Assembly: GCF_015100155.1 (NCBI RefSeq)
Contig: NZ_JACKZA010000006.1
Coordinates: forward strand, 62,001-126,000
DNA length: 64,000 nt
From: Acidithiobacillus sp. HP-2
GTDB lineage: Bacteria; Pseudomonadota; Gammaproteobacteria; Acidithiobacillales; Acidithiobacillaceae
Reading direction: 5' to 3'
Below are positions 2,899 to 62,210 of this stretch, piece after piece (within the stretch, counting starts at the first letter, position 1; each line of letters begins with the position of its first letter). Under the pieces are notes generated by a model, which saw only the letters and a list, made by a program, of their open reading frames with translations, did not search any database and was not told the origin of the DNA. The position numbers and the translations under genes are program-made.

Positions 2899-4152
2899 TC
2901 ACCCGTTTAATACCAACTCCAACACCTCAACGATCTCCGTCGTTCCCATCGTCCCGGACAATTCGCGCCCGGCCTTTGCAAAAGCCCTCTCCAACAAAGG
3001 GCGGGGGAGGGCCACCGTCACCTGATTCGGCAGGGATGCCCCCGGCAGGGGTGCCCCCGGCAGGGATACTCCATCCGCCGGATCTCCGATGACCACTCCG
3101 TTCTCATCCACGGCGCCCCCATCCTCAATGTCCTCATCGCTATCAACTTCGGACAGGTCAATCGTGGACATGTCCACTTCTTCCCCATTGGCATCAAAAG
3201 CCCTTGCAGGGTGCGAACCCATCACGAACCCTTTTTCCTGCTGCATGTCTACCTCCTGCGGTTTTCCGCTCAAACCTTGTTCGTAGCGATCTTCCTCTCT
3301 ATCCACCAGCACACGGGAGAGGGTTTCCCCAGCCTGCAGTCTGGCACGGATGGCGTCCAGCACGATGCGCTTGCCCGCGTCCTTCATCCATCCTTTCATG
3401 CGACTGATGTCTGTTTGTCCGATGGACTCCAGCGGTACGCCCAGATACTCCGCCACTGCCTGTGCATCTTCGCTCCCCAGAGAGAGCATCTGATGTACCC
3501 ATGCCTTGGATCGACCCAGCCGCTTGCCCAGATCCGCCAGGCTCGGCTTTGGGTCCAGGCTATCCATCAGCTGCTTTACAGCCTTCGCCGTATCCACGGG
3601 CGTCATATCCGCCCGCGCCAGATTTTCGGCCAGCTGCATTTCCAGCCGGTCGGCGTCTGTGTCGGGCTCCAGGATCACGGCGGGAATCCGGGACAGGTCA
3701 TAGCCCTTGCGACGGCATGGCTGGCCACTGTCCCGGGCAGCCATGGATGCCCTCCAGCGCCGCTCGCCCGCTATGATCCGATACCTTCCCGACGCGACAT
3801 GACGAACCGCGATGGGCTGCAATACCCCATGCTGCAGGATGCTCTCCTTCAGCAGTTCAAGATCATTGTCGATGGCGTCCTGCGCTCCGGATGCCACAAA
3901 CGTCTTGCGCGGCTGCTCCGGGTCTGGCTCGATCTCCGACAACGCCAGAAAGAGCGCTGAAGCGGCTCCGCCGCCGATCGTTCCGCCCCCGACGGCATTT
4001 CGTTCATCCGCACGAGCCGTTTCCTGGCCCGGAAGTCGTCTACCGGGTAGACGATCGGCTTTGGCAGCGGTCTCGCCGGAATCTCCCGCCATCTCGGCCA
4101 GTGTGCGCTTCATCTCATCAAAGAGATTCTCTGAAAGATCTACCTTGGCCAT
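2899..4152 (-). CDS. parB: ParB/KorB-type partition protein of the mobile element
   Basis: A 417-residue protein. A variable N-terminus is followed by a ParB/Spo0J nuclease-like domain (about residues 75-165, with SEIEPDPEQPRKTF, LLKESILQHGVLQPIAV and RYRIIAGERRWRAS). Next is the KorB-type helix-turn-helix (about 170-250, with LAENLARADMTPVDTAKAV and LGKRLGRSKAWVHQML). The family binds centromere DNA and, with ParA, segregates plasmids or elements. It starts two bases beyond the stop of parA. A copy of the 17-bp palindrome (4037-4053) is embedded in codons 34-39, encoding RLPGRR. The C-terminus has a degenerate Pro-Gly-Ala repeat (LPGAPLPGASLP). Confidence 0.85.
   Translation of the reverse strand: MAKVDLSENLFDEMKRTLAEMAGDSGETAAKADRLPGRRLPGQETARADERNAVGGGTIGGGAASALFLALSEIEPDPEQPRKTFVASGAQDAIDNDLELLKESILQHGVLQPIAVRHVASGRYRIIAGERRWRASMAARDSGQPCRRKGYDLSRIPAVILEPDTDADRLEMQLAENLARADMTPVDTAKAVKQLMDSLDPKPSLADLGKRLGRSKAWVHQMLSLGSEDAQAVAEYLGVPLESIGQTDISRMKGWMKDAGKRIVLDAIRARLQAGETLSRVLVDREEDRYEQGLSGKPQEVDMQQEKGFVMGSHPARAFDANGEEVDMSTIDLSEVDSDEDIEDGGAVDENGVVIGDPADGVSLPGAPLPGASLPNQVTVALPRPLLERAFAKAGRELSGTMGTTEIVEVLELVLNG
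4037..4053. repeat. 17-bp palindrome copy 1, inside parB
   Basis: An exact copy of CGTCTACCGGGTAGACG, lying within the parB coding sequence. The reading frame there differs from the frame used by the copy inside the traB-like gene, so conservation is at the DNA level. Confidence 0.9.
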
Positions 4153-4153
4153 T

Positions 4154-4924
4154 TTATCCCTCCTTCACCGTTTCTTCCGTCGGCACCCGGTCCATTTCCA
4201 GAATCATCTTGCAGGCCATGGCCCATTTCGCCGCTGCCGCGTCTTTCGGGTCCAGCTTCCAGACAGGCATCCCCTGTTTCATGGCGTTGGAAACAATCTG
4301 CCGATTGGTCAGATGCACCGGAAGCACATGCTGACCGAAACCCGACTCGGTGATCGCATCCACGACCATCTGCTGATTCGTGGAGTTCAAAACCCGCTTG
4401 TTGATGACCAGTGACAATCCCAGATCGACCTGCGAGGCGATCTCCCGCCAAACCTTGAGCAGCGAAGTGAGCCCCTGCAACGCCAACAGGTCGGGCTCCA
4501 CGGGCGCCACCAGCAATCCGCCCAGATAGAGCGGGGCCAGCTGCTGTACGCCGGCGGCTGGTGGCGTGTCGATGACCACCACATCGAAATCGATGTCGAG
4601 CAAACGGCTCATCGCCTCCTGTCCGGCCTTCAATCCCTGCTTTTCCACCAGATGGACATGCTGGTGGCCTGGCAGGATTTGGAGATCCCCGAACCGGGTA
4701 TCCTGGAACTCCAGACGGGTGTCCCCATCCCACAGTTCCAATACCGATTTGCCACGGCCATTCGGCTCACCCGTAGTGATGAACGTAGCATTGCGCTGGC
4801 CGTCCATGTCCACGAGCAGGGTCTTTTTCTTTGCCGCCATGCTGGCATAAGCCGCAATGTGAACGGCAAGAGCGGTCTTTCCTACGCCGCCCTTCTGATT
4901 GGTCACGGTAATGATCTGTGGCAT
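4154..4924 (-). CDS. parA: ParA-family partition ATPase
   Basis: A 256-residue deviant-Walker ATPase that drives partition of the element with ParB. It begins MPQIITVTNQKGGVGKTALA, where the P-loop KGGVGKT with its signature lysine marks the ParA/MinD class. The Walker B-like segment is VVVIDTPPAAG near residue 105. There is no N-terminal helix-turn-helix extension, so it is the short form. ATG 4924 was chosen because GAGGGAGAG lies directly upstream; a longer frame to 5017 would overlap the preceding gene by over 100 bp. With this start the overlap with the preceding gene is 22 bp, which suggests translational coupling. Confidence 0.85.
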   Translation of the reverse strand: MPQIITVTNQKGGVGKTALAVHIAAYASMAAKKKTLLVDMDGQRNATFITTGEPNGRGKSVLELWDGDTRLEFQDTRFGDLQILPGHQHVHLVEKQGLKAGQEAMSRLLDIDFDVVVIDTPPAAGVQQLAPLYLGGLLVAPVEPDLLALQGLTSLLKVWREIASQVDLGLSLVINKRVLNSTNQQMVVDAITESGFGQHVLPVHLTNRQIVSNAMKQGMPVWKLDPKDAAAAKWAMACKMILEMDRVPTEETVKEG

Positions 4925-5343
4925 CTCTCCCTCGCTTCTCGCGCTTTGCCAGCGCGAAACTTCGTTTTCCGCCGCTCCTGCTCCTGCAGTGGCGGGTACA
5001 GAATCCAGGCATACCAATACAACATCGTATAGAGCACATCAGGCAGGCCGACTCTGTTGCGGCGGCTGACCTCTGCCAGGTTGTCCGCCAGATGCGCCGG
5101 AATCCGCACGTGCACTTCCACCCATTCCGGGCCGGACACGGCCGGAGGGTGCCCATCCCGCCATCGAAGTCCTTTCTCCCAGGCTTTTTCGGCCAGAAAC
5201 CGGGTGGCGCAATCCTCATGGACGGCCCTCAGCGTCATCCCCTGAACGAAGGCCAGAGCCTGGATGTACAGGTGCATCTTTAACGGGATCACCGTCGATT
5301 CCCCCGCATAGGGCATACCGTTAAAGAGAGATGGTGTCAGCAT
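4903..5343 (-). CDS. First gene of the par operon; possible ribbon-helix-helix regulator
   Basis: A 146-residue basic protein of unknown family. Residues about 72-115 (VEVHVRIPAHLADNLAEVSRRNRVG and what follows) have the pattern of a ribbon-helix-helix domain: a short strand of alternating residues followed by two helices. Such proteins often repress their own partition operon. The gene lies directly downstream of a 17-bp palindrome and the GATCTATACCC motif, and overlaps parA. The assignment as the factor binding the palindromes is inference from position. A plain structural role is also possible. Confidence 0.55.
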   Translation of the reverse strand: MLTPSLFNGMPYAGESTVIPLKMHLYIQALAFVQGMTLRAVHEDCATRFLAEKAWEKGLRWRDGHPPAVSGPEWVEVHVRIPAHLADNLAEVSRRNRVGLPDVLYTMLYWYAWILYPPLQEQERRKTKFRAGKAREARERCHRSLP

Positions 5344-5373
5344 GATTTTTCCTGGCGTGCCCCTTTCACGAAT

Positions 5374-5416
5374 GGGTATAGATCAGCGCCGGGCCAGATC
5401 GTCTGCCGGGTAGACG
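5374..5416 (-). promoter_or_regulatory. Probable promoter/operator of the par operon
   Basis: On the minus strand the order is palindrome (5416-5400, one mismatch: CGTCTGCCGGGTAGACG on the plus strand), 15 bp, then GATCTATACCC (5384-5374), then the ATG at 5343. The same order and the same 15-bp gap occur upstream of the traB-like gene. The TATACC part could be a -10 element, which would put the palindrome over the -35 region, as expected for a repressor site. This is inference from layout. Confidence 0.6.
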
Positions 5417-5438
5417 ATTTACGAGTACGGCCCGGGGC

Positions 5439-6029
5439 TCAGTCTCCCTTCTGCAGCCAGAACTGGCTCCCGGGAATCGTCCACCAGGGAACCGCCCGTT
5501 GCAGGATGCTGGTCTCCGGGACCGGGCCATAATAGCTGGAGTCAAAGGCATAGTTGCCTGGAGCGTAGAGCCAGACCTGCCCATGCTGCAGGTGATAGGT
5601 GCTGAAAGGGTAATGAACAATCTGGTGATGGTGGCCGGGCGTCCAGCGATCCACCCGGGAGTTGGGCAGAGTGTGCCCATCTACCCGGACCCCGGATCTC
5701 GTCAGCCGTACGGTCTGCCCGGGGACAGCGGCGATCTCTTTGATCCACGGCTGTCCAGCGGGAAACCAGTGGTACTTCAGTCCTTCCGCAACGGCGGTGT
5801 GATGGGCGGGGCCAGGAATCCCGACTTCGACCAGTTCTCCATCATGCAACGGATAGGGCGAGCCGAGAAGCTGGTAGAGGCCCACCGGCTCGCAGGTGGA
5901 GTCGTTCAACACCAGATGCTGGGACTGCATCCATAGCCCTACGGCAGCATTCAGCACCAGGACACCGATGATCGCCCATGTGCCCCACCAGAGCAGCCGC
6001 TTAGCGATTGCGGCGGATATTCTTTGCAT
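5439..6029 (-). CDS. traF: TraF-like conjugal transfer peptidase (S26 family), nucleophile Ser replaced by Cys
   Basis: A 196-residue protein with one N-terminal membrane segment (about residues 12-33) and a periplasmic signal-peptidase-like domain. In RP4 TraF and its relatives the catalytic Ser lies in an S-x-P-x-G-x-Y motif; here the motif is C46-E-P-V-G-L-Y52. The general-base Lys is present (WIKEIAAVPGQTV, K97), and so is the C-terminal GPVPETSILQRAVP region. TraF matures pilin by cleavage and cyclisation. The gene ends a four-gene unit with the traB-like gene and overlaps the previous small gene by 29 bp. If the alignment is right, the enzyme would use a thiol nucleophile or be inactive. 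Confidence 0.75.
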   Translation of the reverse strand: MQRISAAIAKRLLWWGTWAIIGVLVLNAAVGLWMQSQHLVLNDSTCEPVGLYQLLGSPYPLHDGELVEVGIPGPAHHTAVAEGLKYHWFPAGQPWIKEIAAVPGQTVRLTRSGVRVDGHTLPNSRVDRWTPGHHHQIVHYPFSTYHLQHGQVWLYAPGNYAFDSSYYGPVPETSILQRAVPWWTIPGSQFWLQKGD

Positions 6030-6213
6030 GGTGGCGCTCCAGAAAACAACGTGCGGGGCCTGTCAATAGCCGAAAGGGAAAGAAGAATAGCCACTCGAAC
6101 TGGGCGGCACCCCAAAGCAGGGCTTCGGCCAGCTTGCGCGGGCCGGGCCGTTCGAAGAAGGCGATGAGCCTCTGGTCAAACCGAGCGATGACTGGTCGAA
6201 GAGGATTGCTCAC
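6001..6213 (-). CDS. Small membrane-associated protein of the transfer operon
   Basis: A 70-residue protein with a basic, amphipathic N-terminus (RFDQRLIAFFERPGPRK), a hydrophobic middle (LAEALLWGAAQFEWLFFFPFRLLTG) and an Arg/Lys/His-rich tail. It overlaps the upstream 109-residue gene by 38 bp and traF by 29 bp, so all three are likely translated from one message. No family is recognised. A role alongside TraF at the inner membrane is inference from position. Confidence 0.5.
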   Translation of the reverse strand: MSNPLRPVIARFDQRLIAFFERPGPRKLAEALLWGAAQFEWLFFFPFRLLTGPARCFLERHHAKNIRRNR

Positions 6214-6505
6214 GCACCCGCTCCTTCAGGATCGTGATCGCCTTTTCCGGAGAGGCTTCCAGGGCTGCAATGTGCTGTTCAGCCGGAATCCGCGAATAAT
6301 CCGCAGGGAGCATCTTTTCCCATTTGGCAATCCGCCGTTGCACGGTGAGGGGGCGGGACCGGTGCGTCTTGAGCAGATCCTTGCGTCGTTCACGGCGCCT
6401 GTCATCCAGGGAATCCAGAACGGACTTCCAGGCCAGCATTGGATCGCAGGGACCAGAGGGGTTTCCCATGGAAACTCCTGCCTTCATATGATCAGGCTTC
6501 TTCAT
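6176..6505 (-). CDS. Small basic cytoplasmic protein of the transfer operon
   Basis: A 109-residue, strongly charged protein with runs such as DDRRRERRKDLLKTHRSR and no membrane segment. It starts 12 bp after the stop of the traB-like gene and overlaps the next gene, consistent with one operon. No domain is recognised. The composition would suit a nucleic-acid-binding or structural protein, but nothing in the sequence decides this. Confidence 0.5.
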   Translation of the reverse strand: MKKPDHMKAGVSMGNPSGPCDPMLAWKSVLDSLDDRRRERRKDLLKTHRSRPLTVQRRIAKWEKMLPADYSRIPAEQHIAALEASPEKAITILKERVREQSSSTSHRSV

Positions 6506-6517
6506 CCGTTCCCCCCA

Positions 6518-7828
6518 TCATTGATTCACCGCGAACAATACCGGTACCCTGAAGAACGCAGCCCAGGCCTTTGCCGACACTCTCTGGATGGCCGGGATAT
6601 TAGTCCCCCGCGCCCACCAGTCATTGGCCGGAGCCAGCAGGATCTGTATCCCATGCGGGTATAGATCGAGGGCCGGCCACATCAGCAGTTGCTCATAGCA
6701 GATGAGATAGCCGACCTTTTTGCCGTCCATCTCCGTGGTTTCCGGTTTTCGGGAAAACGGGGCCATCCGGAAACTGCCCTGGGGGCGCCACGGGTGCCAC
6801 ATCGAGAATGGCACAGGGATGTGATCCGGCAGCACCGTCTGATGGCCATCCTGGATCTTGACCAGAGCATCCAGGTAACCCTTGGCAAGGGGCACATCGG
6901 CCCCGAGCAACACGATTTGTTCTGGATGTCGGGCCGTCCAGCGGATGACCGGGCGCCAAATGGCCCGGGTGCCCGGCAGCCAGGGGCCAGCCACGGTTTC
7001 GGGGAGTAACACTACTTTGTCGCCAGAGCGCAGATCCGCCAGGACCTTCGGAGCCAGTTCCATGGATGCCTCGACATAGGAAAGATTGGAACGCAGACGG
7101 CCCAGGTGGGTATCGATGCCCACCCAGCCAGTGGGCGCTGTGGGCAGCGGGTGCCCCATCATGGCATCCAGGGCAGGGAAAGCAAAAGGCAAAAGCCAAA
7201 GAGCGACGACAACAAATCCAACCACCAGCAGGCGGGTCAAGATCTCTTGATTCTTCTGCGTCAAGCGCCCCAGCGCGAAGATCCCGAGAATGGTCAGCAG
7301 GATGCCGGTTGGTCCTGCGGCGACGGCGCCGAGCCAGGGGGAAGTCCAGCCGATGATGCCCAAAGGCGGGAAGATCGTGGATATGGCGGAGGTGATGACG
7401 GTGGCCGTGACCGCGCCAAAACCGCCGCCAGTAAGGCTGCCGCCCGCAGGGCTGCTGCCACGGAAATACAGAGTAATGTACGGGTACGCCATATAGGGCA
7501 GGGCAAAGGCCAGAGATGACAGCGACCAGAACCCCATACCGAGAAACAGCCCGGCGTGTAGGAAGAAAACCGATGTGCCTTTGATGAGACCATAGGTCGT
7601 CGCCAGGTGGTAACCCAGCATCAGCAGAAACGGGTGCAACCAGTGCCGCTTGTTCACGATGGGCAGAAGCAGCAACGCCAGTGGGGCAAGCCAGATGGCA
7701 TGAGGCCAGGCCAGGGCACCAACCAGGGCGCCCAGGAGTGCCGGAATGGCGAATCTGGAGATGGGAGCGGACTTTCTCCGCGAATCGTCTACCGGGTAGA
7801 CGGAAACGGGTACGTATTTGCTCTGCAT
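6518..7828 (-). CDS. traB: TraB-like conjugal transfer protein (nitrilase/Lnt-like)
   Basis: A 436-residue protein with several N-terminal membrane helices (about residues 25-215) and a C-terminal carbon-nitrogen hydrolase-like domain. That layout matches apolipoprotein N-acyltransferase and the TraB proteins encoded next to traF on Ti-type plasmids. The nitrilase Glu (LLPE277T) and Cys (LIC377YEQ) are visible. At the place of the catalytic Lys the sequence is PDHIPVPF, with Asp instead. A second palindrome copy (7786-7802) lies inside codons 9-14 (SVYPVD). Called TraB rather than a housekeeping Lnt because of the context and the altered Lys. It heads the traB-x-x-traF unit. Confidence 0.75.
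   Translation of the reverse strand: MQSKYVPVSVYPVDDSRRKSAPISRFAIPALLGALVGALAWPHAIWLAPLALLLLPIVNKRHWLHPFLLMLGYHLATTYGLIKGTSVFFLHAGLFLGMGFWSLSSLAFALPYMAYPYITLYFRGSSPAGGSLTGGGFGAVTATVITSAISTIFPPLGIIGWTSPWLGAVAAGPTGILLTILGIFALGRLTQKNQEILTRLLVVGFVVVALWLLPFAFPALDAMMGHPLPTAPTGWVGIDTHLGRLRSNLSYVEASMELAPKVLADLRSGDKVVLLPETVAGPWLPGTRAIWRPVIRWTARHPEQIVLLGADVPLAKGYLDALVKIQDGHQTVLPDHIPVPFSMWHPWRPQGSFRMAPFSRKPETTEMDGKKVGYLICYEQLLMWPALDLYPHGIQILLAPANDWWARGTNIPAIQRVSAKAWAAFFRVPVLFAVNQ
6657..6667. repeat. Isolated copy of the 11-mer GGGTATAGATC inside the traB-like gene
   Basis: This is the same 11-mer that accompanies the palindromes, but here it encodes Asp-Leu-Tyr-Pro and has no palindrome nearby. It lies 150 bp before the 109-residue gene. 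It may be chance or an internal promoter element. Confidence 0.4.
7786..7802. repeat. 17-bp palindrome copy 3, inside the traB-like gene
   Basis: An exact CGTCTACCGGGTAGACG, 26 bp into the coding sequence. With the copy at 7859-7875 it brackets the start codon, a layout suited to co-operative repression. Confidence 0.9.
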
Positions 7829-7832
7829 GAGC

Positions 7833-7875
7833 GGGTATAGATCGGAGATGGGGCGGATCGTCTACCGGGTAGACG
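7833..7875 (-). promoter_or_regulatory. Probable promoter/operator of the traB-traF operon
   Basis: An exact palindrome (7859-7875) is followed on the minus strand, after 15 bp, by GATCTATACCC (7843-7833); the ATG is at 7828. The spacing is identical to that before the par operon. If TATACC acts as a -10 element, transcription would start at or inside the first codons, so either the leader is very short or the motif has another role. Confidence 0.6.
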
Positions 7876-7971
7876 GGCGCAGTGGCCAAGTTTTCCCGGA
7901 AAACGCCCACATGACCCCTTCTTTATCTTGCGTTCCGCTTTTCTTTCGGTAGACACTTTTTTTGGCGTTTT

Positions 7972-7988
7972 CGTCTACCGGGTAGACG
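7972..7988. repeat. 17-bp palindrome copy 5
   Basis: An exact CGTCTACCGGGTAGACG in the non-coding region. A half site (CGGTAGAC) lies 18 bp to its left at 7947-7954. Confidence 0.9.
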
Positions 7989-8042
7989 ATTTTTTGGAGC
8001 GTTATCCCCGCGATCCACAGTCCGAAGCCCAGACAACGAAGT

Positions 8043-8060
8043 GGGGTCCAACTGGACCCC
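8043..8060. repeat. Perfect 8-2-8 inverted repeat
   Basis: GGGGTCCA-AC-TGGACCCC would form a very stable hairpin. No T-run follows it on either strand, so it is not a standard terminator for topB. It could be a processing signal or part of a transfer origin. Confidence 0.6.
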
Positions 8061-8190
8061 CGGCGGCCGTCTGGGTTGTGGTCGGCAAGCCGGAACGAGT
8101 ACCGGCTGGTCGTTACACGGTAACGAGTCGTCCATAAGGCGGTGGAGCTGCGGGGATAACGCGACCAGATGTCCTGGGAAAAGCGGGGTT

Positions 8191-8207
8191 CGTCTACCGG
8201 GTAGACG
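8191..8207. repeat. 17-bp palindrome copy 6, just beyond the topB stop
   Basis: An exact CGTCTACCGGGTAGACG, 28 bp past the end of topB. Confidence 0.9.
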
Positions 8208-8234
8208 ATCTCAGGAAGCAACAAATTGTCTCGC

Positions 8235-10289
8235 TCATGTTTTTTTCTCGCTCCACTTCGTTCCGAGCTTCCTGGCATCCTGCTTGTCCGGCCACCAGCA
8301 GGACTGGCAGCCCTCGCACTTGCAAAAAGCGTCGCCTTTCTTCGTCTTCAGGATGATGGTTGGTTTCTTGCAGGCGGGGCAGGAGGGCCCAACCTTTTGC
8401 ATCTTGCCCCGCGTTTTCACGGCAGACGACTTACCACGACTAGCGCCGGAAGTCGGCCGTGCCTGGCCGACAGCAACGGTCGTCGCCTTGGCCGCCTCGA
8501 TCATGCGCACCACGAATTTGCGCTGGGCTTCCTCGAACTGCTGTAGCGTCACGCGGCCCTCAGACACGGATGACAGGGCATCTTCCCAGCGTGCCGTCAG
8601 GACGGGATCGGTGAGGTCTTTGGGCAGCGCGTGAACCAGCGCCCGCCCTGCCTGGGTGGAGAGGATCTGCTTGCCCTTACGCTCCAGGAATCCCCGGGTC
8701 AGCAGCGTTTCAATGATGCTGGCCCGAGTGGCCTCGGTTCCCAGTCCGGAGGTTTCCTTGAGTTTGGCCTTGGCGGCTTCATCCTCCACCACCTTATGGA
8801 TGTTGCTCATGGCCTCAATGAGCGACCCATCCGTAAATCGGGCCGGCGGCTTGGTCTGTTTTGCCTGGACATCTGCATCCTGGACGTTCAGAACCTGGCC
8901 TTTTTTGAGCGCCGGGATCAGCTGGGCGGGGGTGTCATCACTATCGTCATCGGTCATCCCATACACGGCTTTCCAGCCTGCGGAGACCGGGATGTTGGCA
9001 GTCGCCTTCCAGTCCTCGCCGGTGCAAGTCAGAATGGCCCTGATCGCTCGATACACATAGGGCGGATAGAACTGCGCGAGATAGGAGCGGACGATGATCT
9101 CGTAGACTTTGGCCACGGCGGGTCTCATGGAGCCCTGCATGGAGCCGGTCGGAATGATGGCGTGGTGCGCCGTCACTTTACCCGTATTCCAGATGGCCAA
9201 CTTCCGGTCAGAATCAGCGGCTTTCACCAGATCCGCAAATCCAGCTTTTGCCAGGCCGGACAGTATCTGTCCGGCATCCCCATGCTGTTCTTCCGGTAGA
9301 TAGCGGCAATCGGTCCGGGGATAGGTCGCCGCCTTGTGTTCCTCATACAGCGCCTGGGCCGCATCAAGGACATTTTGCGCCGACATGCCGAGCTTGGCGG
9401 AGCAGACCTTTTGTAACTCGGCAAGGGAGAAGCCTAATGGTGCCTGCTGCTGCTTTTCGGCGCTGGTGAAGTCCTTCACCGACGCCTTGCCGTCTGCTTT
9501 GGCCCGGGATACCAGCCGATCAGCGGCTTTCCGGTCGGTGAGGTAGCCTTCGACATCGACGCCCTCGAAATCCTCCCTCAGCTCCCAGGTGGCCCAGAAG
9601 CCCGCGTTGATGCGCGGAACGTAGTAGTCCTTCGGCTTGAAGTGCTCGATCTTCTCATCACGGGCCACGACCAGAGCCAAGGTCGGCGTCTGCACCCGAC
9701 CCACGGAGACGACCCCAGCGCCGCTGTTGCGCAGCGTGAATGCGCGGGTGAGATTCATGCCCATGAGCCAGTCCGCGCGGGCACGGGCTTCGGCAGAATT
9801 GCGGAGATTCTGGTAGTCCTGGTTATCCTTGAGCGATGCCAGCGCCTTACGCACGGATTGCTCATCGAGGGCGGCCAGCCAGATCCTCAGGGTTGGTCCT
9901 TTCCAGCGGAGTTCCTCCAGTACCTCATCCACCAGCAGCTGGCCCTCTCGGTCCGGGTCGCCTGCATTGACGACAGACGAAGCTTTCTTGAGCAGGTCCC
10001 GGATCACCTTGATCTGGGCCTTGGCGTCATCCTTCGCCCGCTTTTTCCATTGCTCGGGGAAAATGGGCAAATCCTCAAATCGCCATTTCTTCTTGCCCTT
10101 CGGCGTGGTGGGGACATCATCGGGCGTATAGAAGTCCGGCTCTTCTTGCTCGAAGATATGGCCGAAGCACCAGGTCACGACGGTATCGGATCCGCACTGA
10201 ATGAACCCGTTACCCTTGTTCTTCGGTCCGGGCAAATACTCGGCGATCCCTTTGCCCAGACTGGGCTTCTCAGCGATGTATAGTTTCAT
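8235..10289 (-). CDS. topB: DNA topoisomerase III (type IA), mobile-element form
   Basis: A 684-residue type IA topoisomerase that passes single strands through a transient nick, here probably serving decatenation or transfer of the element. The Toprim domain is N-terminal (MKLYIAEKPSLGKGIAEYLPG; DPDREGQLLVDEVLEE near residue 115). The catalytic Tyr lies in AATYPRTDCRYLP, near residue 325. A C-terminal zinc ribbon is visible (CPACKK at about 640, CKCEGCQSCWW at about 662). Plasmid and ICE copies of this enzyme (TraE of RP4) lie close to traF, as here. GAGGG seven bases upstream supports the ATG at 10289. A palindrome lies in the leader. Confidence 0.9.
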   Translation of the reverse strand: MKLYIAEKPSLGKGIAEYLPGPKNKGNGFIQCGSDTVVTWCFGHIFEQEEPDFYTPDDVPTTPKGKKKWRFEDLPIFPEQWKKRAKDDAKAQIKVIRDLLKKASSVVNAGDPDREGQLLVDEVLEELRWKGPTLRIWLAALDEQSVRKALASLKDNQDYQNLRNSAEARARADWLMGMNLTRAFTLRNSGAGVVSVGRVQTPTLALVVARDEKIEHFKPKDYYVPRINAGFWATWELREDFEGVDVEGYLTDRKAADRLVSRAKADGKASVKDFTSAEKQQQAPLGFSLAELQKVCSAKLGMSAQNVLDAAQALYEEHKAATYPRTDCRYLPEEQHGDAGQILSGLAKAGFADLVKAADSDRKLAIWNTGKVTAHHAIIPTGSMQGSMRPAVAKVYEIIVRSYLAQFYPPYVYRAIRAILTCTGEDWKATANIPVSAGWKAVYGMTDDDSDDTPAQLIPALKKGQVLNVQDADVQAKQTKPPARFTDGSLIEAMSNIHKVVEDEAAKAKLKETSGLGTEATRASIIETLLTRGFLERKGKQILSTQAGRALVHALPKDLTDPVLTARWEDALSSVSEGRVTLQQFEEAQRKFVVRMIEAAKATTVAVGQARPTSGASRGKSSAVKTRGKMQKVGPSCPACKKPTIILKTKKGDAFCKCEGCQSCWWPDKQDARKLGTKWSEKKT

Positions 10290-10303
10290 TAGGTACCCTC
10301 AAT

Positions 10304-10352
10304 CGTCTACCGGGTAGACGCTCTGCGTCACCCCAACGCAAGGGTATAGATC
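10304..10352 (-). promoter_or_regulatory. Control region upstream of topB
   Basis: On the minus strand GATCTATACCC (10352-10342) comes first, then after 21 bp an exact palindrome (10320-10304), then the ribosome-binding site and ATG (10289). The order is the reverse of the other two promoter regions, so here the palindrome would lie downstream of transcription start, as a roadblock-type operator. Confidence 0.55.
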
Positions 10353-60875: not shown

Positions 60876-62210
60876 ATGCCCATACTTGATTTACCTACTC
60901 CCGATTATCCATTCCGACGCCGTCAGCTCATGCAGAAAATGCATGACTCTGCCGTTGCCATTATTCCTACGGCTGTCCCCAAACAGCGTAATAGTGATGT
61001 GCAATATCCGTTTCGCGGCGACAGCGACTTTTTATACCTCACCGGATTTGAGGAGCCTGAGGCCGTCCTCGTCCTGATTCCTGGATATTCTGAGGGAGAG
61101 CAAATTCTGTTCTGCCGTCCTCGTGATCCGGCTCGGGAAACCTGGGATGGGCGCAGGGCGGGTCTGGAGGGGGCGCTGGCCCAATGCCAGGTGGATCGCT
61201 GTTATTCCATTCATGATTTAAATGAGCAAATACCGGCACTTCTGGAAGGCCGGGAGCTTCTGTTTTATCCCATGGGACAAAACAGTGATTTTGACGCCAG
61301 AGTCATGCATTGGCGAAATCTGGCGAAAAGCAAAATTCGTCATGGCATTCGTTATCCGCAGGAAGTGGTGGATGTCGGCGGTCTGATTCATGAAATGCGC
61401 CTATTCAAGGATCCTGCCGAGCTGGAGTGCATGCGGGCCGCTGTCGGCATCAGTGGTGCCGGGCATCGTCATGCCATGCGCCAGTGCCAGCCGGGCATGA
61501 TGGAATATGCCCTGTGCTCGGAAATTGAACATGTTTTTCGGCGCCTGGGTTCACCGAGTGTGGCCTATCCCAGTATTGTTGGCGGCGGTGAAAATGCCTG
61601 TATTCTTCACTACACGGAAAATAATGCGGAATTACGCGACGGAGATCTGGTTCTGATTGATGCCGGGGCAGAAGTTGCTGGATATGCGGGGGATATTACC
61701 CGTACTTTCCCGGTGAATGGTGTGTATAGTCCTGCCCAGCGGGAAATCTACGAAATCGTCCTGGCTGCTCAGGAGGCTGGAATTGCTGCGGTGCAGGCCG
61801 GGAGGCCGGTGTCTGATTATCACGATGAGGCGGTCAAGGTTTTGGTAGATGGCCTGCGTGATCTGAAAATCCTCTCAGGCAGTCGTGATGCCCTGATTGA
61901 ACAGGGAGCCTATAAAGCTTTTTATATGCATGGTACCGGTCACTGGTTGGGCCTGGATGTGCACGATGTGGGACATTATCGCAATAAAGACAAGACCTCG
62001 CGCAAACTGGAACCGGGAATGGTATTGACGGTAGAGCCGGGTCTGTACTTTGCTCCAGCGAATCTTTCGGTACCGGAAAGGTGGCGGGGAATCGGCATCC
62101 GGATCGAAGACGATGTGGTGGTAACAGCGGCCGACCCCGAGATTCTTTCGCAAAATGTCCCTAAAAAAGTGGCAGACATTGAGGCAACGATGGCTGCGGG
62201 GCCGGCCTGA
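60876..62210 (+). CDS. pepP: Xaa-Pro aminopeptidase
   Basis: A 444-residue metallopeptidase removing N-terminal residues before proline. N-terminal creatinase-like domain (YPFRRRQLMQKM, DSDFLYLTGFEEPEAVLVLIPG); pita-bread domain with metal ligands in DAGAEVAGYAGDITRTFP, HGTGHWLGLDVHD, LTVEPGLYF and GIRIEDDVVV. Start at 60876 with GGAGG upstream. Confidence 0.95.
   Translation: MPILDLPTPDYPFRRRQLMQKMHDSAVAIIPTAVPKQRNSDVQYPFRGDSDFLYLTGFEEPEAVLVLIPGYSEGEQILFCRPRDPARETWDGRRAGLEGALAQCQVDRCYSIHDLNEQIPALLEGRELLFYPMGQNSDFDARVMHWRNLAKSKIRHGIRYPQEVVDVGGLIHEMRLFKDPAELECMRAAVGISGAGHRHAMRQCQPGMMEYALCSEIEHVFRRLGSPSVAYPSIVGGGENACILHYTENNAELRDGDLVLIDAGAEVAGYAGDITRTFPVNGVYSPAQREIYEIVLAAQEAGIAAVQAGRPVSDYHDEAVKVLVDGLRDLKILSGSRDALIEQGAYKAFYMHGTGHWLGLDVHDVGHYRNKDKTSRKLEPGMVLTVEPGLYFAPANLSVPERWRGIGIRIEDDVVVTAADPEILSQNVPKKVADIEATMAAGPA

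Follow-up and report, generated by a model that had tools for sequence, protein, structure and literature searches.

The 64,000-nucleotide stretch analysed here, hereafter the window (positions 62,001 to 126,000 of contig NZ_JACKZA010000006.1 of Acidithiobacillus sp. HP-2), carries seven copies of a 17-bp palindrome in the partition and transfer block of an integrative and conjugative element (ICE). We propose that this palindrome is probably the parS site and operator of the element's own partition protein ParB, which would autoregulate the par operon, control the traB and topB promoters and use the array of sites between topB and traB as a centromere. Judged from sequence comparison, it belongs to a real and conserved ParB-type operator set of an ICE family, in which three operator codes can be distinguished.

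Operator copies in the window

The palindrome CGTCTACCSGGTAGACG occurs exactly at positions 4037, 7786, 7859, 7972, 8191 and 10304 and with one mismatch at 5400, as counted in an earlier note made from the same DNA; the 14 matches recovered correspond to these seven places, each read on both strands. No further match with up to three mismatches was found in the 64 kb, and 100 shuffles gave a mean of 0.07 matches and a maximum of two. Extending the search to the whole 3.2-Mb genome (G000) at up to two mismatches added a single two-mismatch match, on contig C22. The 17-mer, CGTCTACCGGGTAGACG, is an odd palindrome whose two 8-bp arms flank a single G or C.

The earlier note placed three copies at the heads of the par, traB-traF and topB units and suggested that one operator is common to them. 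Such a shared operator is indeed seen, the copies at 5400-5416, 7859-7875 and 10304-10320 (all sites are given on the plus strand) lying respectively upstream of the p146-parA-parB operon, upstream of traB and in the topB leader upstream of topB. Two exact copies, at 7972-7988 and 8191-8207, belong to the topB-traB intergenic array. The other two are intragenic rather than at unit heads: that at 7786-7802 occupies the first codons of traB, inside the annotated start, and that at 4037-4053 lies inside parB, where codons 34-39 encode RLPGRR in a segment modelled as disordered. The description of the set as element-wide was too broad, sites in G000 being confined to the par-to-topB block and missing from the integrase and Trb/TraG side.

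Site placement relative to predicted promoters

Placement was compared in seven elements (G000, both elements of G003, G007, G008, the first element of G010, and G016), whose sites are found ahead of topB, between topB and traB, at or immediately ahead of the traB start, ahead of p146 and inside parB. These sites keep a fixed distance to a TATACY motif, which we infer to be a -10 box. In the window, GATCTATACC stands beside an operator on the minus strand at 5375-5384, 7834-7843 and 10343-10352, and is the likely -10 region of the par operon, traB and topB promoters, respectively; of the four copies of the longer pattern GATCTATACY in the 64 kb, three adjoin operators and one is inside traB. 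Of the 12 cases with a TATACY motif at most 60 nt downstream of a site, 11 have a gap of exactly 19 nt, namely the par promoter of all seven elements (the 5400 copy in the window) and the traB promoter of four (the 7859 copy in G000, and its counterparts in the first G003 element, G007 and the first G010 element). In all seven elements the topB operator starts 22 nt past the box (10304 in the window), and in five a further operator starts 31 nt past the traB box (7786 in the window). The window boxes concerned all read TATACC.

Taking TATACY as the -10 box would place the par operator over the -35 region. Repression by occlusion or road-block would then be the likelier sign of regulation, because the site covers the expected -35 region at par, and at traB in four elements, and lies in the leader at topB; activation, as by the ParB of plasmid NAH7, is also possible.

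The intragenic parB site is kept at the same codons in seven of the eight class A parB genes (defined below), the only change being between the synonymous proline codons CCC and CCG. Among six parBs it shows one variable column of 17, the minimum within the disordered segment. As 28 of the 371 in-phase parB windows are as conserved or better, this conservation is a supportive, not a decisive, sign of selection at the DNA level.

Distribution across genomes

Within the genus, 14 of 17 genomes contain at least one match at up to two mismatches and only nine contain four or more. Across the order, YGTCTACCSGGTAGACR at up to one mismatch matched 13 of 31 genomes, the same nine having four or more, and the reversed control pattern gave 0 to 2 matches per genome. 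The 17-mer co-occurs with par and tra genes in related Acidithiobacillus elements, a check proposed in the earlier note; it is not scattered over the chromosome at random, nor do orthologous elements lack it. From these comparisons, the site is a conserved feature of the Trb-type ICEs of Acidithiobacillus. Its outer letters are C..G in 77 of the 80 perfect 15-mer cores of the 15 CG-type loci compared, and T..A in 19 of 27 cores at six loci that form a second set in G010 (contigs C1, C92, C100, C119, C140 and C172).

A wider search returned 30 stretches with matches. Single sites in other taxa account for 19, fewer than the approximately 30 estimated by chance for 257 Gb, and the others are nine from Acidithiobacillus, one Proteobacteria contig from a metagenome-assembled genome (MAG) and L044. 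This last, a MAG contig named Actinobacteria, holds five sites together with a 10-mer also found in the window array (TTTATCTTGC), and is probably misbinned. Nine viral contigs were seen with one site each. The variant TGTCTATCGGGTAGACG lies at G000:C22:247395-247411 and is also present, once each, in G001 (C150) and G016 (C1:1100259); perhaps these represent one shared chromosomal locus. The letters GTCTACCGGGTAGAC appeared in no paper of the CC-licensed literature searched, and the sections covered of five Acidithiobacillus papers (PMC6370655, PMC10561277, PMC4226512, PMC10322971, PMC3826726), of which three were searched for repeat, palindrome or operator wording, contain no passage on such an operator.

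ParB as the candidate reader of the operators

The proposed reader is encoded by parB (2899-4152, minus strand). Its N-terminal domain is well supported by PF02195 (67.2 bits, cut-off 26.3) and TIGR00180 (96.5 bits, cut-off 58.45), and residues G129-R132 and E176-L178 are invariant among 11 aligned ParBs; we take these to be the GERR and ENL motifs of the cytidine triphosphate (CTP) pocket. The helix-turn-helix profile PF17762 scores just 15.5 bits, below its cut-off of 22.6, and the structure model places helices at 185-295 (whole-model mean predicted local distance difference test, pLDDT, 66.3). In sequence and in fold (by Foldseek), the protein matches Noc, Spo0J/ParB and KorB structures. 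A ParB dimer would dock on the palindrome through its helix-turn-helix and spread from the sites as a CTP clamp, thereby autoregulating the p146-parA-parB operon and controlling the traB and topB promoters, and the topB-traB array would serve as the centromere for ParA action while the ICE is extrachromosomal.

A survey of the 31 genomes at E<=1e-30 detected 24 ParB loci, of which 23 have a readable recognition helix, the remaining one being cut by a contig end. Class A ParBs, found at eight loci in six genomes (G000, G003, G007, G008, G010 and G016), all carry the helix SKAWVHQ, once SKAWAHQ, and all six genomes contain site clusters. The helix is kept even in L084/L125, which is 62% identical over the part present. 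Class B ParBs (helix SRTWV; G015, G016 and G017) go with a different palindrome centred on a single G or C (S), YGTTTTCSGAAAACR. Two loci with the helix SRTWVNQ, L089 and L092, have no class A site and one TGTTTTCSGAAAACA upstream of p146; from these a palindrome of that type was expected at traB of G015 and then found there. The expectation had not been recorded in advance, but the pattern was already part of the script with which that stretch was first examined. This traB stretch holds nine exact copies of YGTTTTCSGAAAACR; contig C81 of G015 holds ten, and its par contig C93 and relaxase contig C154 one each. Within the order, exact class B sites occur in only three genomes, G015, G016 (one copy) and G017 (two copies), which are the three with an SRTWV helix. 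One site of mixed form was also seen in G015, on C73. Class C ParBs (helix SATWVKN; G008 and G013) are accompanied by CGTCTTCSGAAGACG around traB (exact copies: three and one, respectively); its outer letters differ from those of CAACTTCSGAAGTTG upstream of p146. G012 carries three CGTCTTCSGAAGACG-type sites and no ParB at E<=1e-30. Genome-level Fisher tests of these associations over the 31 genomes gave 1.1e-4, 2.2e-4 and 6.5e-3, with relatedness ignored.

Among elements with other ParBs, a direct-repeat search in four gave no common repeat set, but palindrome scans brought out candidates. An earlier scan for palindromes with 6-bp arms and at least three copies had missed them because the stretches hold one or two copies each.

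Several observations weigh against ParB as the reader. The helix classes were defined after the sites had been seen, the class B sets of G016 and G017 are small (one and two exact sites), and of the class C palindrome only the core had been foreseen. A class A ParB is lacking from G005, G012 and G015, which have at least four class A sites each, and from G014, which has one. Two of these assemblies are fragmented, G005 into 880 contigs and G012 (85% complete) into 430, and the G005 cluster adjoins a topB remnant, which fits a relic; G015, however, is rated 100% complete (180 contigs). The 11 cases of the 19-nt gap are orthologous copies of two promoters (par seven times, traB four times), this spacing was not found at traB of the second G003 element, G008 and G016, and in the L084 par operon a site is lacking both from the 500 nt ahead of p146 and from parB. 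Lastly, co-occurrence alone cannot separate ParB from other proteins of the element because helix, p146 and site travel together.

The protein with the most direct claim besides ParB is p146 (4903-5343, minus strand), encoded first in the par operon and directly downstream of an operator. Its model (mean pLDDT 85.9) shows two strand-helix-helix units, that is, a tandem ribbon-helix-helix protein of TraY-like, DNA-binding fold, which aligns over 95 residues, at Z 11.8, with chains of F-plasmid relaxosome entries that we take, by size, for TraY. TraY-like proteins act at the origin of transfer (oriT) and at promoters. Present in all eight class A elements, p146 could thus be the regulator that binds the operators, leaving ParB to use other sites. 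We consider this improbable in view of its presumed DNA-contacting second strand, which varies (WVEVHVRIP, WVEVNVRIP, WAAVHVRLP, WTQVTVSLP) at an unchanged site core whereas the ParB helix is constant. Moreover, in L090, L091 and L095 relatives of p146 occur on fetched stretches that have neither a parA nor a parB match. Between ParB and this 146-residue protein, the choice leans to ParB, which appears from the sequence data to be the best candidate reader.

We give a rather low probability to binding by another element protein, such as p119, or by a host factor. The p119 gene, located between trbI and a transglycosylase gene, is present in all eight class A elements with a near-invariant strand (RPMSITLP, RPMSVTLP or RPMSVSLP), which also counts against ParB, and a reader other than ParB would accommodate the clusters of G005, G012 and G015. 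No Pfam or NCBIfam match was obtained for p119, which is likely a ribbon-helix-helix protein of the type IV secretion system (T4SS) operon; where both could be located, at least 7 kb separate it from the closest site, and it belongs to the T4SS side, which is devoid of sites. A host factor would be expected neither to leave 22 of the 31 genomes of the order, and eight of the 17 of the genus, without a cluster nor to act on two elements of a single genome (G010) that use different outer letters. In other elements we read toxin-antitoxin-like genes (HigA- and HicB-like) between traB and topB; these have no match in the window and were rejected as the regulator there.

A reading of the arrays as replication iterons (oriV) to which a Rep protein binds, instead of as regulatory or centromere sites, is very improbable. 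Arrays do adjoin replication-like genes, by our reading of the sequence, in G015 (C66) and on contigs C92 and C172 of G010, one of these genes encoding an AAA_25 domain. However, these neighbours vary from locus to locus, the window block has none, no Rep initiator is shared, and the fixed spacing of the sites to promoters is contrary to iterons.

Comparison with known systems

Among the closest parallels to the proposed ParB operator set is KorB of the IncP plasmid RK2, described in passages of PMC11790492 as a CTP-dependent clamp whose operator, an odd S-centred palindrome, lies near or far from promoters. Both systems would pair a ParB-superfamily protein with dispersed odd palindromes around a single G or C, near transfer and maintenance promoters, and tie partition to regulation (PMC11790492). 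The earlier note held that KorB-type sites differ. This is true of the letters, RK2 having TTTTAGCGGCTAAAA and the window CGTCTACCSGGTAGACG (PMC11790492), but the geometry is alike. RK2 is moreover a plasmid, unlike the chromosomal ICE considered here. KorB structures match the element's ParB at the superfamily level; at E<=0.1 only ParB_N and HTH_ParB were detected in it, with no match to the KorB-specific Pfam domain.

In the IncP-9 plasmid NAH7, according to passages of PMC12421886, ParB activates the transfer genes and an 18-bp repeat occurs six times, exactly or nearly so. Both systems have multiple inverted repeats close to par and transfer genes, and the repeats also occur near such genes of other replicons (PMC12421886). 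The NAH7 site is, in contrast, an 18-bp even palindrome, TTTCTCGCATGCGAGAAA, at which ParB activates, and its partner is the KorA-like ParR in place of the TraY-like p146 (PMC12421886). The ParB of IncC plasmids, as presented in part of PMC10954446, has 14 plasmid-borne parS sites that are mimicked and hijacked by SGI1. Many scattered sites, also carried by another mobile element, recall the present arrays, whereas the IncC site is 22 bp long with a 14-bp even core, TTTCACATGTGAAA, and its binding was demonstrated experimentally (PMC10954446). By analogy, the Acidithiobacillus system works like the KorB, NAH7 ParB and IncC regulons but with a new operator sequence.

Operator codes and orphan arrays

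The three codes, GTCTACC-S, GTTTTC-S and GTCTTC-S, would each run the partition and transfer genes of their own element. We tentatively suggest, as a possibility we do not favour, that one ICE family has split into at least three distinct ParB-operator codes that keep co-resident ICEs separate, and that orphan class A arrays are hitch-hikers. Such arrays, for instance that on C66 of G015, would use the ParB of another ICE, as SGI1 does with IncC. The C66 array (L082:8933-11938) comprises eight class A operators beside replication-like genes and is also near restriction-modification genes; the ParB of this family in G015, and its other operators, are class B. On G010 contig C140 (L077:5108-5640), an operator array lies between inverted repeats of approximately 75-80 bp, as judged by eye, and similar arrays occur on other G010 contigs, some adjoining restriction-modification genes.

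For an ICE family of biomining bacteria that is catalogued yet little studied, the candidate regulator-operator pair offers a concrete handle. The three related ParB specificities, each with its palindrome, form a natural set with which the question of how ParB-type proteins change DNA specificity becomes testable, as does the use by an integrated element of its partition protein to control transfer genes, a link that is recent knowledge for plasmids (NAH7, RK2).

Other motifs and spacing of the arrays

The window array contains a companion palindrome, GTTTTCCCGGAAAAC (7890-7904, plus strand), its only window copy at up to one mismatch. It is found exactly in nine loci, namely the window, L065, L067, L069, L071, L074, L080, L082 and L083, has its centre approximately 30 nt from that of an operator and resembles a class A/class B hybrid. 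The conserved 10-mer TTTATCTTGC (7922-7931, plus strand) is found once in the window, with an operator core 51 nt further on, and in 14 further loci, preceded by CCCCTTC, CTCCCTC or similar letters. The 51-nt distance to the start of an operator core recurs in 12 of its 19 occurrences, the others having other distances or none. We take this 10-mer to resemble a relaxase nick site; against its reading as an oriT, it was not found in the stretches fetched around six relaxase genes.

Helical phasing was assessed at five periods. For the 37 distinct spacings of CG-type loci, Rayleigh p was approximately 0.08 at 10.5 bp, 0.02 at 10.0 bp and above 0.2 at the others, and for the 19 spacings of the second G010 set it was 0.04 at 10.5 bp and 0.02 at 10.75 bp. 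Because so many periods were tried, we make no claim of phasing. Runs of 62-65 bp spacing occur in the G010 arrays, which look like mutual copies.

Genes of the block and the host element

The block consists, on the minus strand, of topB, the site array, traB, two small genes, traF, p146, parA and parB. The topoisomerase III gene topB (8235-10289) matches TIGR01056 (631.5 bits, cut-off 515.75) and traB (6518-7828) matches NF010397 (985 bits, cut-off 882). An S26-type conjugal peptidase is encoded by traF (5439-6029), which passes PF10502 (39.2 bits, cut-off 22.9) and scores 61.3 bits with TIGR02771, below its cut-off of 100.25. For parA (4154-4921), the start was taken at MPQIITVTNQKGG, an inferred start codon. 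The same block was found in G003 (two elements), G007, G008, G010 and G016, and each of these elements, like that of G000, encodes a PF02534 coupling protein, either no more than approximately 31 kb from the par block or elsewhere on the same contig. In G007 and the first G003 element, a gene for a 1045-residue GGDEF/EAL protein (L069:10942-14079) separates the par operon from traF.

Among 10 open reading frames (ORFs) scanned just left of the window, VirD4-, TrbI/VirB10-, VirB9- and VirB1-type genes were identified, TrbI and CagX domains being present in the G000 element; further left, an integrase gene lies beside a tRNA-Pro gene. The G000 element (L006:2294-18035, left of the window) appears to begin at this tRNA-Pro with the integrase, followed by S24 peptidase/LexA-like and phage-type DUF1376/IstB genes and then, among the ORFs scanned, by a partial Trb T4SS. 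From this gene content it is probably mosaic or truncated. No common 13-mer that could mark attL and attR was found between the integrase end (G000 C48:43301-47000) and the topB end (C48:72201-75500).

The sites of G007, which we take to be A. ferrooxidans ATCC 23270, span positions 1,489,876-1,503,716. They fall inside iMGE4 of that strain (1346955..1522548), catalogued in PMC10322971 as a Trb-type ICE with ParAB and a Type I restriction-modification system, like the elements studied here. The earlier description of the element as uncharacterised is not supported as worded, its family having been catalogued. The same paper, in the part concerned, names a third ATCC 23270 element ICEAfe2, "primarily uncharacterized", which from our reading of the modules we take to be iMGE4; the passages at hand of its published description, unlike the present analysis, include no operator. 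Near the par block, positions 1739-1981 of the window encode an 80-residue winged-helix protein (DprA_WH/MarR-like), otherwise seen, among the loci searched, in G010 only.

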